This document shows positions 40,561 through 48,733 of a stretch of DNA of 64,000 nucleotides, piece by piece; the first letter of the stretch is position 1; each line of letters begins with the position of its first letter. Position numbers and translations under genes: made by a program. Source of the stretch: Sphingobium xanthum (lineage in GTDB: Bacteria; Pseudomonadota; Alphaproteobacteria; Sphingomonadales; Sphingomonadaceae); NCBI RefSeq assembly GCF_019737615.1, contig NZ_JAHKKS010000013.1:1-64000 (forward strand), given 5' to 3'. The notes beneath the pieces are model-generated. The model worked only from the letters and a program-made list of their open reading frames with translations, did not search any database and had not been told where the DNA came from.

Positions 40561-41211
40561 TCATTCTATCTTGGCCGCGATTTGTCTCAGGATATGTGCG
40601 AAAACGGCGGCAGGCTGGCCGCCCGAAATAAGATATTGGTCGTTCACGATGATCGCCGGGACGGCATTGATCCCTCGTGACATCGAAACTTCTTCCGACA
40701 TCCGGACATATCGCGAAAATTTCCCTGATTGGAGCACTTCCGCAGCGCCTTCGCGTTCGAGGCCCACGTTTTGCGCGATGTCGGCAAGGACTGCATGGTC
40801 GCTCACGTCGCGCTTTTCGGACAGGTAGGCAGTGAACAGGGCCTGTTTCAATTCCCGTTGTTTGCCCTCGAGCTTCGCCCAATGCAGCAGCCGATGGGCG
40901 TCGAAGGTGTTGTAGAAGCGGTCATCATGGGCGAGCGCGACATCCACGCCGACTTCCTTGGCCCGGTCGCTCAGGCTAGGCTGGTCCGAGGGCAAATGGC
41001 TGGCGGCTTCGCCATATTTTTCCCGGAGATTCTCGCCAACATTCTGGCCCTCCGGCGGAAGGTCGGGGTTAATCTCGAAGGGGTGGAAGATGAGGTCTGC
41101 ATCGACCTCGTCGGCGAGGCTGGCAAGCGCTTCATCCAGGCCCTTCAGGCCGATCGCACAAAACGGACAGGCGATATCGGAAATGAAGTCGATCTTGAGG
41201 TGCTTGGGCAT
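40561..41211 (-). CDS. DsbA-family oxidoreductase (FrnE-like)
   Basis: A 216-residue thioredoxin-fold protein without a signal peptide, so cytoplasmic. The active site CPFC is at residues 15-18 (DIACPFCAIGLKGLDEAL), and the rest follows FrnE-type proteins: FEINPDLPPEGQN, AHRLLHWAKLEGKQRELKQAL and INAVPAIIVNDQYLISGGQPA with the cis-proline. It could act in thiol/disulfide exchange. It is on the same strand as the bufD-bufA1 genes, 85 bases downstream of bufD, so it might belong to that operon, but this is not certain. Confidence 0.85.
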   Translation of the reverse strand: MPKHLKIDFISDIACPFCAIGLKGLDEALASLADEVDADLIFHPFEINPDLPPEGQNVGENLREKYGEAASHLPSDQPSLSDRAKEVGVDVALAHDDRFYNTFDAHRLLHWAKLEGKQRELKQALFTAYLSEKRDVSDHAVLADIAQNVGLEREGAAEVLQSGKFSRYVRMSEEVSMSRGINAVPAIIVNDQYLISGGQPAAVFAHILRQIAAKIE

Positions 41212-41296: not shown

Positions 41297-41734
41297 CTAC
41301 CTGAAGATCGCCCAGTCGAGCGACCAGGCTCCGCCGCCGCGCAGGATAAGGGGAAGCAAAAGTCCCGCCCAACTCAAATGGGTTGCCCATGCATCGGGAT
41401 AGACGAAGATCTCAATGACCGCTGTCATGCCGAGCAAAGCGAGCGCCGCGCCTCGCGTGAACAATCCCAGCACCAGCAGGATCGGGAAGAAATGCTCCGA
41501 GTAGGTCGCGGCATGTGCGGCGATTTCCGGCGGCACCAGCGGCAGCGCATATTCTGTGCGGAATAGCTCATATGTGCCATCCGTAATGTGGAGCAGCCCA
41601 TCCACTTTCGTCCGGCCGGACTGGAAAAAGACGGCTGCGATGCCGAGGCGCGCAACCAGAAGCGGCAGGGCATCAGGCACGCGGGCGGTCAGGCGCTGGA
41701 CGGCGAGAGTGCCGGCCGCAAGGGGCGTTGTCAT
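41297..41734 (-). CDS. bufD: DoxX-family protein of the bufferin locus (BufD-like)
   Basis: 145 residues with four membrane helices: [61 protein letters not shown] (two helices) and [15 protein letters not shown]. The HSEHFFP-like motif and the position directly after a bufferin precursor gene match the DoxX gene of bufferin clusters. Its role is thought to be in the inner membrane, perhaps redox or quinone-linked, but is not proved. It lies 59 bases after bufA1, separated by a strong stem-loop. Confidence 0.82.
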
Positions 41735-41793: not shown

Positions 41794-42066
41794 TCAGGCC
41801 TTGGGAGTCAGCGAGCCATTGCCCTTGGGCGTCTTGATGGTCGTGCAGGTGCCGGCCTTGACCAGCTTCCAGGCATTGCCCTGATAATTAACCTTGGAGG
41901 TGCCTGCGCAGCTGGTGCCGGCGCCGGCCTTGCAGTCATTCTTGCCGGCGAGCGACACGCCATAGCATTTCTCCATCGGGGTCTTGTCGGCGGCGGATGC
42001 CGAGGTCGCGGTGGCAGCAATGGCGAGAGCGAGGGTCGCGGCGAGGGTGGCGTGGGTCTTGATCAT
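41794..42066 (-). CDS. bufA1: Bufferin precursor, BufA1/DUF2282 type
   Basis: A 90-residue precursor. The signal peptide (about 1-25, ending TSASAA) exports it to the periplasm. The DUF2282 core has [20 protein letters not shown] and [18 protein letters not shown], with four cysteines at 34, 45, 53 and 74. In characterised bufferins, an MNIO enzyme turns two cysteines into thiooxazoles and the peptide then binds copper. ATG 42066 has an AAGGAGA-like ribosome binding site. It is transcribed leftward from a promoter of the same pattern as the sigma gene and bufA2. Confidence 0.9.
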
Positions 42067-42118
42067 TTTCTGTCTCCTTGAAAGGGGTGTCCGGGCAATC
42101 GCCGGACATGCCCCGGAG

Positions 42119-42144
42119 TTCGCGGAGGGCGACGCGCCGGTTAC
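42119..42144 (-). promoter_or_regulatory. SigF-like promoter for bufA1-bufD
   Basis: Read on the minus strand, GTAACC (42144-42139) is followed after 16 bases by CGAA (42122-42119), about 53 bases before the bufA1 ATG. The pattern equals the one I recall for Caulobacter sigma-F. The same boxes occur at two further promoters in this locus. Confidence 0.68.
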
Positions 42145-42189
42145 GCAGGGCGCTGGACAAATATTTTCATCGTTCGATGCGCCCGACAT

Positions 42190-42214
42190 GTAACCTTCGA
42201 GCGTCAGAGACGAA
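42190..42214 (+). promoter_or_regulatory. SigF-like promoter for sigma/nrsF
   Basis: GTAACC (42190-42195) and CGAA (42211-42214) are separated by 15 bases, 22 bases before the sigma gene start. This suggests positive autoregulation of the sigma factor. The spacer is one base shorter than at the bufferin promoters. Confidence 0.62.
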
Positions 42215-42236
42215 TGCACCTGTCACAGGAGCATGA

Positions 42237-42773
42237 ATGCGGGCGAACGAGGATCAGTTGCGGGCCTGGATGGTGGGAGGACTGGACGGCGTCGCGGCCG
42301 ACCATGCCTGCCTGTTGCGCGCACTCGTGCCCATTCTGTCCGCTTTCTACAGCCGGCGCGTGTTCGCATCGGACGATATCGAGGATCTGGTGCAGGAAAC
42401 GCTTATCGCCGTGCATAGCCGCCGCGCAACCTATGACCGGGATCGCGCCTTCACCGCCTGGCTGTTTTCCATCGCGCGCTACAAGATGATCGATCATTTC
42501 CGCCGCAGCCGCTCCGTCGTGCCCATCGAGGAACTGGAAGACATACTGATGGTCGAAGGCTTCGAGGCCAGCAGCGGTGCACGACTCGACATCGAAGATC
42601 TGCTCGGCACCCTGCCGGCCAAACAAGCGCGGATGATCCGCGCAACACACATAGACGGCGCCACCGTCGCCGAGGCGGCCGCTGCCAGCGGCTATGGCGA
42701 GTCAGACGTGAAGGTCTCGATCCATCGCGGCCTCAAAGCATTGGCGGCGCGCATCCGAGGCAGCGAAACATGA
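42237..42773 (+). CDS. sigF: ECF sigma factor (SigF-like) of the bufferin locus
   Basis: A 178-residue ECF sigma factor. Region 2 is at about 20-95, with DIEDLVQETLIAVHSRRATYDRDRAF in pieces and WLFSIARYKMIDHFRR (region 2.4). Region 4 is at about 120-172, with LGTLPAKQARMIRATHIDG and YGESDVKVSIHRGLKAL. Its stop overlaps the start of the NrsF anti-sigma gene (ATGA). The two flank a bufferin cluster as in Caulobacter, where the sigma controls bufferin expression in response to excess metal. The promoter copies around it fit that role. Confidence 0.88.
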   Translation: MRANEDQLRAWMVGGLDGVAADHACLLRALVPILSAFYSRRVFASDDIEDLVQETLIAVHSRRATYDRDRAFTAWLFSIARYKMIDHFRRSRSVVPIEELEDILMVEGFEASSGARLDIEDLLGTLPAKQARMIRATHIDGATVAEAAAASGYGESDVKVSIHRGLKALAARIRGSET

Positions 42774-43411
42774 ATACCGACCAGCTCATCGACAGTCTCG
42801 CGAGTGACGTGAAGCCGGTTCGCCGGAGCGCGCTTGGCGCGCGGCTCGGGTTCGGCATGCTGATCGGCGCGCTCGTCTCCGCAGCTCTCGTTATCATGCT
42901 CCTTGGCGCACGCCCGGATCTGGCAAGCGCCATGAATGGCTTCGCCTTCTGGATGAAGTGGACCTACACGCTTTCGCTCTCTGCCATCGCGGTCTACGCG
43001 ACGGCGCAGTTGGCGCGACCCAATCCGGGCAATTTGCGGGTTCTCTGGCTGATCGCCATTCCTGTGACCCTTCTTGCGGGCGTGGGCGTGCTGGAACTCG
43101 CGCATACACCGCCGGGCGAATGGCTCGCCATGTGGCTCGGCAGCAGCTGGAGCAAATGTCCCTGGTATGTGTTCGGGCTCGCCATGCCGATCTTCATCGG
43201 GCTGCTCTGGTCGTTCCGCCGGCTGGCGCCGACGCGGCTGCGCGCGGCGGGCGCCGCAGCTGGGCTGGCGGCGGGTGCGTTCGCCGCGACCGTCTATTGC
43301 CTACATTGCCCCGAGGTCTCGGCGATCTTCGTGCTGACCTGGTACACGCTCGGCATATTGCTCGCCGCCAGCCTTGGCGCGCTGGTCGGCCCGCGTCTTT
43401 TGCGCTGGTGA
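42770..43411 (+). CDS. nrsF: NrsF-family anti-sigma factor (DUF1109)
   Basis: A 213-residue inner-membrane protein with six predicted helices, starting inside the sigma stop. DUF1109/NrsF proteins hold an ECF sigma at the membrane until a signal frees it. Visible pieces: IDSLASDVKPVRRSALGARL in the cytoplasmic N-tail, SSWSKCPWYVFGLAMPIFIGLLW and a C-terminal YCLHCPEVSAIFVLTWYTLGI. The two cysteine motifs (KCPW and HCPE) are the likely sensing cysteines of this family. Confidence 0.88.
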   Translation: MNTDQLIDSLASDVKPVRRSALGARLGFGMLIGALVSAALVIMLLGARPDLASAMNGFAFWMKWTYTLSLSAIAVYATAQLARPNPGNLRVLWLIAIPVTLLAGVGVLELAHTPPGEWLAMWLGSSWSKCPWYVFGLAMPIFIGLLWSFRRLAPTRLRAAGAAAGLAAGAFAATVYCLHCPEVSAIFVLTWYTLGILLAASLGALVGPRLLRW

Positions 43412-43412
43412 T

Positions 43413-43438
43413 GTAACCGGCGGCCGCGTTGCTCCGAA
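43413..43438 (+). promoter_or_regulatory. SigF-like promoter for bufA2-bufB-bufC
   Basis: GTAACC (43413-43418) and CGAA (43435-43438) are spaced by 16 bases, 42 bases before the bufA2 ATG. Box sequences and spacing match the bufA1 promoter on the other strand. Confidence 0.7.
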
Positions 43439-43479
43439 CAAGAGATGCCAACCCGGCACAATCATTCGGAGATACCTTC

Positions 43480-43743
43480 ATGAACAGCTTCCGTACCGGC
43501 GTCAGCTTCGCCGCTTCCGCCGCCCTCATCGCCATCAGCGCCGCCGCCGTGCCGACGGCCGCAGTCGCCAAGGGGGCGACCAAGATCCATTGTTACGGCG
43601 TCAACACCTGCAAGGGTACTTCGGACTGCAAGACGTCGAAGCACGACTGCAAGGGCATGAATGACTGCAAGGGCACCGGTTTCAAGGAAATGTCGGTGAA
43701 GCAGTGCTCGGCCGCTGGCGGCACCACGACCGAAGCGAAGTAA
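43480..43743 (+). CDS. bufA2: Bufferin precursor, BufA2-like, six cysteines
   Basis: 87 residues with a signal peptide (about 1-30, ending AAVA). The short mature part is unusually rich in cysteine and lysine, with cysteines at 38, 44, 50, 57, 63 and 76. The first five lie about every six residues in repeated (N/D)xCKG-like units: NTCKGTSDCKTSKHDCKG, then MNDCKGTGFKEM. Position before bufB and bufC and the export signal mark it as a bufferin-type metallophore precursor, but it is different from DUF2282. An AGATACC spacer and CGGAG ribosome binding site precede ATG 43480. Confidence 0.85.
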   Translation: MNSFRTGVSFAASAALIAISAAAVPTAAVAKGATKIHCYGVNTCKGTSDCKTSKHDCKGMNDCKGTGFKEMSVKQCSAAGGTTTEAK

Positions 43744-43816: not shown

Positions 43817-44647
43817 ATGATCCCTTCCTTTGCCGGCTTCGGCCTCGGTTTGCGCAAGCAACATTACGCAGAGTTTCTCGAGCACCGCGTCGCCGTTGAT
43901 TTCGTCGAGGTGATCTCGGAGAATTTCATGGTCGATGGCGGGCGGCCCCGGCGCATCCTGCGGGAGGTGCGCGAGCGCTATCCCGTAGCACTGCATGGCG
44001 TTTCGATGTCCGTCGGTTCGGCAGACGGCGTGGACCGTGCCTATCTCGTGCGGCTTCGCGCGCTCGTCGAAGAGATCGAGCCCCTGTTTGTCTCCGACCA
44101 TCTCTGCTGGACGCAATCTGGCGGCTTTAACTCGCACGACCTGCTCCCGCTGCCCTACACGCAGGAAGCGCTCGATATCGTCTGCGCGAATATTTCCATC
44201 GCCCAGGATGCGCTCGGTCGCGAGATGCTGATCGAGAACCCATCGAGCTACATTTCTTTCGAGAACGACATGATGAGCGAATGGGCCTTTCTCGACGCGG
44301 TCTGCGCGCGCACCGGCTGCGGCCTGTTGCTCGATGTTAACAATGTGTTCGTCAGTGCCACCAACCATGGCTTCGATCCTGTCGCCAATCTGGACGGCGT
44401 CCCACATGAGCGCGTGCGCCAGATCCATCTCGCCGGCCACGCTCAAGGCGAGACTATGCTTATCGACACGCATGACAGTCCGGTGGCCGCTTCGGTGTGG
44501 GATCTCTACCGCCATATCCTGCCACGCCTCGGCCCGGTCGCGACGATGATCGAGCGCGATGACGCCATTCCGCCGCTGCATGAACTGCTTGCCGAACTTG
44601 GCCAGGCGCGCGCGATCAACGCCCAGACCGGTCGCCTGGCGGCATGA
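43817..44647 (+). CDS. bufB: MNIO-family bufferin maturase (DUF692)
   Basis: 276 residues, a TIM-barrel multinuclear iron oxidase. In this family two or three irons oxidise cysteine to a thiooxazole on the precursor peptide. Candidate metal ligands, in order: His 60 (VALHGVSMSVG), Asp 94-His 95 (SDHLCW), Glu 140 (LIENPSSY), Asp 173-Asn 175 (LDVNNVFVSATNHGFD), His 204 and His 208 (HLAGH), and Asp 217 with His 219 (IDTHDSP). It is cytoplasmic and acts before export. Its stop overlaps the bufC start (ATGA). Confidence 0.92.
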   Translation: MIPSFAGFGLGLRKQHYAEFLEHRVAVDFVEVISENFMVDGGRPRRILREVRERYPVALHGVSMSVGSADGVDRAYLVRLRALVEEIEPLFVSDHLCWTQSGGFNSHDLLPLPYTQEALDIVCANISIAQDALGREMLIENPSSYISFENDMMSEWAFLDAVCARTGCGLLLDVNNVFVSATNHGFDPVANLDGVPHERVRQIHLAGHAQGETMLIDTHDSPVAASVWDLYRHILPRLGPVATMIERDDAIPPLHELLAELGQARAINAQTGRLAA

Positions 44648-45393
44648 ACCTCGCCCGGCTCCAGCGCGAATTCAGCACATGGCTGCAGGCGGACAAGCCA
44701 GCCGACGCTGCGCCGTTTGGCGAGCGAGCGCGGCTTGGCCTCGCCATCTATCAGAACAACTTCCGCGCCCAGCTTGCCACCTGTCTGGAAGACAGCTTCG
44801 ACAAGACTCGGCAATGGATCGGCGGCGAGGCGTTTCATGAAGCCATCGTTCACCATGTCGAGCGCGTGCCGCCGAGCAGCTGGACCCTCGACGCCTATCC
44901 CCGCGACTTCCCCGCAACCCTGGCAATGCTCTATCCTATCGACCCTGAAGTCGCGGAACTTGCAGCGCTCGAACTGGCACTGGCGGACGCCTTTGTCGGA
45001 CCAGATGTGAACAGGCTCGCGGCCGAGCAGATCGCGTCGGCAGACTGGGACTGCGTAACTTTGCTCTTTGTACCCATGCTTGATCTCCTCCCGATGACGA
45101 CCAACGCTGCTGCGATCTGGACTGCACTTGCCGAGGAGGCTTCGCCTCCGATGAGTGCATTATTACCAACAGCTGGTGCACTGTTGGTCTGGCGCGACGG
45201 CGAAACACCGCGGTTCCGTGCGATCGAGGCAATGGAGGAGCGCGCGATCCTGCTCATGCGGGGCGGTATGACGTTCGCGCGACTGTGCGCGGACCTTGTC
45301 GAAGACGTCGGCGAAGCCGAGGGCGTGACACTTGCGGGGGCTTGGTTGGGTCAGTGGTTAGCGGACGGTCTGGTCAGCGATCTCATTGACTGA
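44644..45393 (+). CDS. bufC: Bufferin maturation partner (DUF2063, HvfC/BufC type)
   Basis: 249 residues, starting inside the bufB stop. The N-terminal DUF2063 domain (about 1-95) has MNLARLQREFSTWL, GLAIYQNNFRAQLATCLEDSF and WIGGEAFHEAIVHHVERVPPSSWTL in pieces. The C-terminal half is a compact helical region (GMTFARLCADLVEDVG) that may bind the precursor. In related systems this protein is required with the MNIO enzyme for substrate recognition. No DNA-binding or catalytic motif. Confidence 0.9.
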   Translation: MNLARLQREFSTWLQADKPADAAPFGERARLGLAIYQNNFRAQLATCLEDSFDKTRQWIGGEAFHEAIVHHVERVPPSSWTLDAYPRDFPATLAMLYPIDPEVAELAALELALADAFVGPDVNRLAAEQIASADWDCVTLLFVPMLDLLPMTTNAAAIWTALAEEASPPMSALLPTAGALLVWRDGETPRFRAIEAMEERAILLMRGGMTFARLCADLVEDVGEAEGVTLAGAWLGQWLADGLVSDLID

Positions 45394-47561: not shown

Positions 47562-48209
47562 CTACCAACGCAAGATGCGCGGAATGAGCAGGCGCCCAAC
47601 GGCCCCACAAACGGCGACCGGAACAGCGTGCCAGACTCCAAAATGCACGATCGAATTTATGGGGCAATGAAGACCATAGCCGAAAATGCCGATTGCGCCG
47701 GCGGCTATTCCTACCAGCAATCCGGCACGCGCCGGATGCACCGGAGCGCCGCGCCTGAGCCAGGCTATCAGAACGATGGCGGTCAACAGGCCTGCGCATG
47801 TCCCGACCAAGGCGCAGACCGTGTCATCCAAGCCAAAATATATCCGTGATGCTGGCCAGTCGCGGCTAGCCGTTACGACTGCAGCAAGCGGGAGAAGGCC
47901 CGCCATGGCCAGAGCCCACTTCCAGCCCTCGTGCTGATTCCCGACCTGAGGGCTGGCCATGCCGACCGCAGTCGACGCTGCTGCCAGCGCGAGAACAAGA
48001 AGCACGCCGTTCGAGACGATGAAGTTGATCGACAACAAGCCAGCCAACAGATCCGGTCGCAGGCCCGTGGCGGCTGCAACGATTGCTACGTTGATCGTTG
48101 CAGCCCCCATGACGCGAACCATACCCTTACGGAACGTCATTGGTGACACAGGCTTGAGGCCTGCGGCCAGGTTTTCGATCAGTCGATCCGTATCGGGGCT
48201 TACTGTCAT
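47562..48209 (-). CDS. NrsF-family anti-sigma factor (DUF1109), second copy
   Basis: A 215-residue membrane protein with six helices. Features shared with the other copy: an N-tail IENLAAGLKPVSPMTFRKGMVRVM, then FGLDDTVCALVGTCAGLLTAIVLIAWL (in parts) and GYGLHCPINSIVHFGVWHAVPVAV with the conserved HCP. It overlaps the ECF sigma stop by four bases. It presumably sequesters that sigma at the membrane. The 3' side (47338-47561) has no gene. Confidence 0.87.
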   Translation of the reverse strand: MTVSPDTDRLIENLAAGLKPVSPMTFRKGMVRVMGAATINVAIVAAATGLRPDLLAGLLSINFIVSNGVLLVLALAAASTAVGMASPQVGNQHEGWKWALAMAGLLPLAAVVTASRDWPASRIYFGLDDTVCALVGTCAGLLTAIVLIAWLRRGAPVHPARAGLLVGIAAGAIGIFGYGLHCPINSIVHFGVWHAVPVAVCGAVGRLLIPRILRW

Positions 48210-48733
48210 TGTGCTTTCTCGATCAGGGCAGTCAGTTTTTTCAAACCTCGATGAATGTTCACCTTGACCAGTGACTCGCTCTGCCCGCTGATCCTCGCCG
48301 CCTCGGTGACGCTTCGGCCGTCAATCTTGACCAGTATGATCGCTCGAGACTGGGCAACCGGGAGTTCCGCCAGCAGACGGTCAAGGCTGACCCTCGCCAT
48401 GACATCATCCTCGATCGAACCGTCATCGACCTGCTCCGCGATTTTCAGATCCTGAGCGCGGTAGGCCCGGCTGAGATGATCGACCCAGCGATAGCGGGCG
48501 ATGGCCGCGAGCCAAGGCAGAAAAGGCCTTGCGGGATCGTAGCTAGCCAGTTTGCTATGGAGTGACAGCAGTGTGTCCTGCACAAGATCGTCGATCTGCT
48601 GCGGCGGCAGCCGCCGATAATAATATCGGCGCAACCACTTGGCGCATTCCTTCAACAGCGCCGCATAGGTCGATGCATCACCGCCCTGCGCCTGCTTCAT
48701 GAGACGGGCCAAGGACGCCTCGTCGGCAATCAT
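48206..48733 (-). CDS. ECF sigma factor paired with second NrsF
   Basis: 175 residues. Region 2 has QQIDDLVQDTLLSLHSKLASYDP and WLAAIARYRWVDHLSRAYR; region 4 has LAELPVAQSRAIILVKIDGRS and SGQSESLVKVNIHRGLKKL. It is clearly related to the sigma at 42237 but distinct. No GTAACC/CGAA promoter was found before it, so its own promoter pattern differs or it is driven by another sigma. A nearby candidate target is the spondin-type PEP-CTERM gene at 48882-49688. Confidence 0.88.
   Translation of the reverse strand: MIADEASLARLMKQAQGGDASTYAALLKECAKWLRRYYYRRLPPQQIDDLVQDTLLSLHSKLASYDPARPFLPWLAAIARYRWVDHLSRAYRAQDLKIAEQVDDGSIEDDVMARVSLDRLLAELPVAQSRAIILVKIDGRSVTEAARISGQSESLVKVNIHRGLKKLTALIEKAQ

Follow-up and report, generated by a model that had tools for sequence, protein, structure and literature searches.

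In Caulobacter crescentus, the promoters of the ECF sigma factor SigF were mapped by 5' RACE and primer extension as GTAACC-N16-CGAA, and their lacZ activity needs both the -35 element and sigF (PMC3511200). The SigF-NrsF regulon of this species (CC3253-CC3252, CC3254-3257, CC2907-2905 and CC2748) consists of sigF-nrsF, both bufferin operons and MsrPQ, and is inducible by chromate, cadmium and copper (PMC3511200; PMC8224329). Copper was reported to act on the whole regulon, bufferin genes included, and a sigF mutant to be copper sensitive (PMC8224329). ECF16 sigma factors paired with NrsF-family anti-sigma factors are likewise found in Brucella (BcrS-AbcS) and Sinorhizobium (RpoE7-EcfR7) (PMC8315932; PMC6180224). 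For Brucella the consensus is given as (T/C)GTAAC-N17-CGAA (PMC8315932); its spacing is equal, the last C being counted in the spacer. The targets differ from those considered here: in S. meliloti they are four genes divergent from rpoE7-ecfR7 and orthologous to CC3254-3257, and in Brucella they are HOCl-inducible genes of the methionine-rich-peptide and MsrQP types (PMC8315932; PMC6180224). In a survey of bufferin clusters, sigma and NrsF genes accompanied Buf1 clusters and not Buf2 clusters (PMC12452194).

The locus studied here lies in Sphingobium xanthum, within a stretch of 64,000 nucleotides that was analysed as a whole and is called the window below. Three sites in it are very probably promoters recognised by SigF (ECF16), and the copper/metal-stress regulon that they would form is compact and predicted not to extend beyond the locus. 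The motif, its position, its conservation, its link with NrsF and the presence of a single MNIO gene were observed in the present analysis.

Probable promoter sites and genes of the locus

The window contained exactly three matches to GTAACC-N15/16-CGAA, compared with a mean of 0.07 and a maximum of one in shuffled sequences, none of which had three. The sites before bufA1 (42119..42144, minus strand; GTAACCGGCGCGTCGCCCTCCGCGAA) and bufA2 (43413..43438, plus strand; GTAACCGGCGGCCGCGTTGCTCCGAA) are exact copies of GTAACC-N16-CGAA, and the site before sigF (42190..42214, plus strand; GTAACCTTCGAGCGTCAGAGACGAA) is GTAACC-N15-CGAA, with a spacer one base shorter. The arrangement of an ECF16-type promoter, i.e., (T/C)GTAACC at -35, a 16-nt spacer and CGAA at -10, was thus found apart from the N15 at sigF. 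The end of CGAA is 52 nt from the ATG of bufA1, 22 nt from that of sigF and 41 nt from that of bufA2. The preliminary description had located the three sites at these same positions, 20-55 bases from the start codons, and both statements hold, with no further match in the window. Its identification of the motif with the Caulobacter sigma-F pattern was also correct, as the published consensus is identical (PMC3511200), and the promoter type is accordingly already known and not new. The -35 element of the bufA2 promoter begins only 2 nt past the stop codon of nrsF, and therefore sigF transcripts may read through into bufA2; a terminator scan found no terminator-like site on the plus strand between the sigF promoter and bufA2.

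Matches to Pfam and NCBIfam profiles agreed with the bufferin, ECF sigma and NrsF identities proposed earlier. On the minus strand, bufA1 (41794..42066) encodes a Buf1-type bufferin precursor (DUF2282) of 90 aa with four cysteines, which scored over the cut-off for PF10048 (2.9e-24) and has a signal peptide by eye; it is the only DUF2282 gene in the genome. Downstream of it are a doxX/HvfX-like gene (41297..41734, minus strand; PF07681, 5.9e-18), which was found in nearly all buf loci of the relatives, and a gene for a DsbA-like thioredoxin-fold protein (40561..41211, minus strand; PF01323), which was absent from the relatives' loci and does not belong to the conserved gene set. On the plus strand, sigF (42237..42773) encodes an ECF16/SigF-type sigma factor of 178 aa with Sigma70_r2 and r4_2 domains, whose best NCBIfam matches, PRK12539/PRK12536, were slightly below cut-off. 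It overlaps by 4 nt with nrsF (42770..43411, plus strand; PF06532, 1.5e-73), which encodes a membrane anti-sigma of 213 aa, so that an ECF sigma with regions 2 and 4 stands beside an NrsF/DUF1109 anti-sigma as in ECF16. The two cysteines C130 and C180 of NrsF, whose counterparts C131 and C181 are needed in Caulobacter, were kept in 78 of the 79 sequences. A third cysteine, C177, three residues ahead of C180 (CLHC), occurred in 77 of the 79 and is beyond the two reported for Caulobacter. The remaining genes on the plus strand are bufA2 (43480..43743), encoding a Buf2-type precursor of 87 aa (NF050166, 1.1e-29; 102.5 bits with a cut-off of 60), bufB (43817..44647), encoding an MNIO bufferin maturase of the Buf2 lineage (NF050167, 1.8e-115; 384.7 bits with a cut-off of 310), and bufC (44644..45393), encoding a DUF2063 maturase partner (PF09836, 1.8e-16). 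The only MNIO gene in the genome is bufB.

Conservation and the link with NrsF

The search with NrsF yielded 79 related loci, almost all of them in Sphingomonadales, in which conservation was scored with GTAACN-N15/16-CGWA and the window was included in the counts. The motif was present upstream of bufA1 in 59/59 genes compared, upstream of bufA2 in 57/57 and upstream of buf-linked sigF in 58/58, the last comprising 55 with N16 and 3 with N15. The N15 sigF promoters were those of the window, L042 and L097 only, and all other sites had N16. All three promoters were kept in each of the 54 relatives' loci carrying bufA1, sigF and bufA2. When the letters of the motif were permuted, the mean match rate in the relatives' upstream regions was about 0.1%, compared with 98% for bufA1 and bufA2. 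The distance from the motif to sigF was nearly fixed (16-23 nt in nearly all relatives). Apparent gaps at bufA1 of L050 and bufA2 of L081 were due to miscalled start codons, and the motif was present in both. One genome, of Sphingomonas oligoaromativorans, has two complete sigF-nrsF-buf loci (L101, L076), and in both the buf genes are preceded by CGTA promoters. The promoter code of Caulobacter SigF is thereby extended to sphingomonads with broad comparative support.

The -10 element in the relatives was either CGAA or CGTA. One clade of NrsF had CGTA at all three promoters and the other clades had mostly CGAA. Examples of the CGTA clade are L052, L058, L076, L079, L091, L094 and L104-L106, in which the change is accompanied by R83 in place of K83 in the sigma factor; this residue, which adjoins region 2.4, was the one best separating the two sets. 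Strict coevolution of sigma factor and promoter was considered and rejected, because essentially one change at the level of a clade was involved and some sigma factors with K83 have CGTA at their own promoter. The association of CGTA with R83 may for this reason be taken as a lead and not as proof of altered specificity. Since the -10 element at each of the three promoters goes with the clade of the sigma factor, the group would offer a simple system for studying joint change in an ECF sigma and the small set of promoters it serves.

Genomes with and without NrsF were also compared, as bufA1 is present in genomes of the same order that lack NrsF altogether. The motif preceded a buf gene in 26/27 loci from genomes with NrsF (a hand count) and in 0/23 from genomes without it (Fisher p=2e-13, uncorrected for relatedness). 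This link is in part phylogenetic, because most of the NrsF-negative controls were from one other family; three negatives were from the window's own family. In this family, 19 loci have an alternative layout with sigF placed behind bufA1-doxX. In 18/19 of these loci sigF lacks a motif of its own, and the divergent bufA1 and/or bufA2 promoters retain it, which indicates that both bufferin outputs stay coupled to the sigma factor despite the rearrangement.

Possible feedback, a second sigma factor and the predicted extent of the regulon

The identity of the sites as promoters, the mechanism of NrsF and induction by chromium, cadmium and copper are taken from the Caulobacter literature. By analogy, SigF presumably acts on the three sites in Sphingobium xanthum, and copper would be the signal for the locus. 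In the resting state, SigF would be retained by the membrane protein NrsF; metal acting on the conserved periplasmic cysteines of NrsF would set it free, and RNA polymerase with the freed SigF would then initiate at the three GTAACC-N15/16-CGAA promoters. The leftward transcript would be bufA1-doxX, and the rightward transcripts would be sigF-nrsF and bufA2-bufB-bufC, the latter being also reached by read-through from sigF. The matching promoters would ensure that the BufA1 precursor is produced whenever its presumed maturase is, because the sole maturase of the genome, bufB, is on the bufA2 side. The locus may be regarded as a minimal, locus-confined switch for copper stress.

The regulon had been described as self-amplifying. 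A SigF-type motif is present at sigF itself, and positive feedback on sigF is likely in principle, but it is inferred. In Caulobacter, autoregulation of sigF is weak under chromium and cadmium, and a second, unknown regulator of sigF exists (PMC3511200); the N15 spacer may weaken the feedback here further. The sigF site could even be weak and near-constitutive, with basal transcription provided by another regulator, no real feedback, and only the two buf promoters mattering. This seems unlikely to us, although it has to be weighed: besides the Caulobacter findings, the N15 spacer is restricted to this sigF promoter and those of two relatives, and in the alternative layout sigF is usually without a motif. 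On the other hand, copper raises sigF and nrsF of Caulobacter by log2 fold changes of about 2 to 5 (PMC8224329), every one of the buf-linked loci retains the motif before sigF, and in the alternative layout sigF is located inside a bufA1 operon that is driven by SigF, which would also give feedback.

The claim that the regulon is governed by one ECF sigma and its NrsF stands as to the sigma/NrsF pair and the small size, but not as to "one", since there is a second ECF16-like pair in the window at 47562-48733. It consists of a sigma gene (48206..48733, minus strand), 40% identical to sigF, and a gene of an NrsF-family anti-sigma (47562..48209, minus strand; PF06532, 5.4e-43). The pair is situated 2.2 kb from bufC and beside a PEP-CTERM gene. 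Shared control by the second sigma is possible, because 6/15 of its relatives bear GTAAC-N17-CGAA upstream of themselves. In that case the three promoters would be common to SigF and its paralogue, each with its own NrsF, and the locus would integrate two signals. We consider this improbable. The two sigma/NrsF pairs are inside 6 kb, the sigmas have a similar region 4.2 helix (SESLVKVNIHRGLK vs GESDVKVSIHRGLK), and relatives of the second sigma have GTAAC-N17-CGAA or GCAACC-N16-CGAA upstream of themselves. However, region 2.4 differs between the two, and genomes whose only NrsF is of the first type retain the buf locus. Moreover, the GTAACC motif was not found upstream of the second sigma in this genome; its promoter has apparently lost the motif or never had it, and the second sigma may have drifted to another specificity. 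A stretch GGAAC-N16-CGTG upstream of it resembles, by eye, a general-stress promoter.

Elsewhere in the genome, 13 other copies of GTAACC-N15-17-CGWA were examined, along with one more that emerged when the -35 was relaxed. The majority were inside other genes, none in the whole-genome scan was at a convincing promoter position, and the off-locus totals were below those of the backwards-pattern control (16 vs 79; 5 vs 33). No convincing copy was found upstream of the two Oxidored_molyb (MsrP-type) genes of the genome. The best candidate among them, at G000 C3:115311 (N17) and immediately before a gene, was discarded, as 19 relatives of the same genus have no such -10 and carry a TTAA-N7-TAACCAT box in its place, which we take to resemble a CtrA site. 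With no other promoter-like copy in the genome, the regulon is predicted from the scan to be the locus alone, in keeping with the small size suggested in the preliminary description. That the motif is a repeat or is bound by a different regulator, and is not a sigma promoter, is hardly credible, as nothing specific speaks for it (the one off-locus GTAACC copy just mentioned belongs to another conserved type of box), whereas the motif is the exact sigma consensus mapped by 5' RACE, has a fixed N16, a near-fixed distance to sigF and a gene-ward orientation, and is absent without NrsF.

A possible shared maturase, leader hairpins and comparison with Caulobacter

BufB belongs to a subclade of the Buf2 lineage in which bufA2-bufB is beside a separate bufA1 without a maturase of its own. 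In a hand count, 15/17 genomes of the divergent layout had exactly one MNIO and one DUF2282 gene. Two readings are open: both precursors are matured by one enzyme, or Buf1 is left unmodified; the matching promoters fit the former, and BufB would then act on BufA1.

Conserved hairpins are present in both leaders, close to the expected 5' end. That of bufA2, TGCC-AACCC-GGCA (43446..43458, plus strand), was found by folding near the predicted start of the mRNA; GCC..GGC was present at this position in 55/56 leaders, compared with 1.8% in shuffles, and the tiny TGCC-N5-GGCA hairpin is possibly an mRNA stabiliser. The leader of bufA1 in the window is short and has one hairpin, GUCCGG...CCGGAC (42088..42108, minus strand), which alone is not significantly stable (z -1.7). 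The 28 long bufA1 leaders of relatives have two covarying stems, with 84% of cells paired vs 33-44% when slid, and 31 double-changed cells vs 9 in shuffles. In L044-L113, the bufA1 leaders are about 105 nt long, with two conserved stems and compensatory changes (e.g., L103:5228-5347, L051:5242-5349). The GCCTC loop and a downstream GAGGC of the long leaders could form a pseudoknot. An Rfam search of the leaders gave no meaningful match. A base pairing between the ribosome-binding site of bufA1 and the 5' CTCC in its leader was dropped, because CTCC precedes the expected start of transcription. It is tentatively proposed, at somewhat less than even confidence, that in sphingomonads one MNIO of the Buf2 lineage matures both Buf1 and Buf2 precursors, with matching SigF promoters replacing a precursor-maturase operon, and that the conserved 5' stem-loops set the stability or translation of the transcripts. 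The locus makes it testable whether one MNIO matures two bufferin families, a question raised in the published survey for tandem precursors only.

Compared with the clusters of that survey, the window shares the core of BufA, MNIO, DUF2063 and DoxX, and differs in that sigF-nrsF is between the Buf1 and Buf2 precursors, which apparently share one MNIO of the Buf2 lineage (PMC12452194). The GTAACC-N16-CGAA consensus, a sigF adjoining the Buf1 operon, an NrsF with two conserved cysteines, and Buf1 and Buf2 operons in the regulon are common to Caulobacter crescentus and the window. In Caulobacter the bufferin genes form two separate operons that each include an MNIO, and MsrPQ is in the regulon too, whereas the window's genome has one MNIO, bufA2-bufB-bufC directly follows nrsF, and bufA1 has no adjoining maturase. 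Neither an MsrPQ promoter nor a separate Buf1 maturase operon of the Caulobacter type was found, and the predicted regulon is smaller than that of Caulobacter, which adds the second maturase operon and MsrPQ. What appears to be new relative to Caulobacter is the presumed use of a single maturase of the Buf2 lineage for two separately transcribed precursors, together with the predicted conserved 5' hairpins in both leaders. The locus is thus of a known kind, in a variant more compact than the arrangement in Caulobacter.
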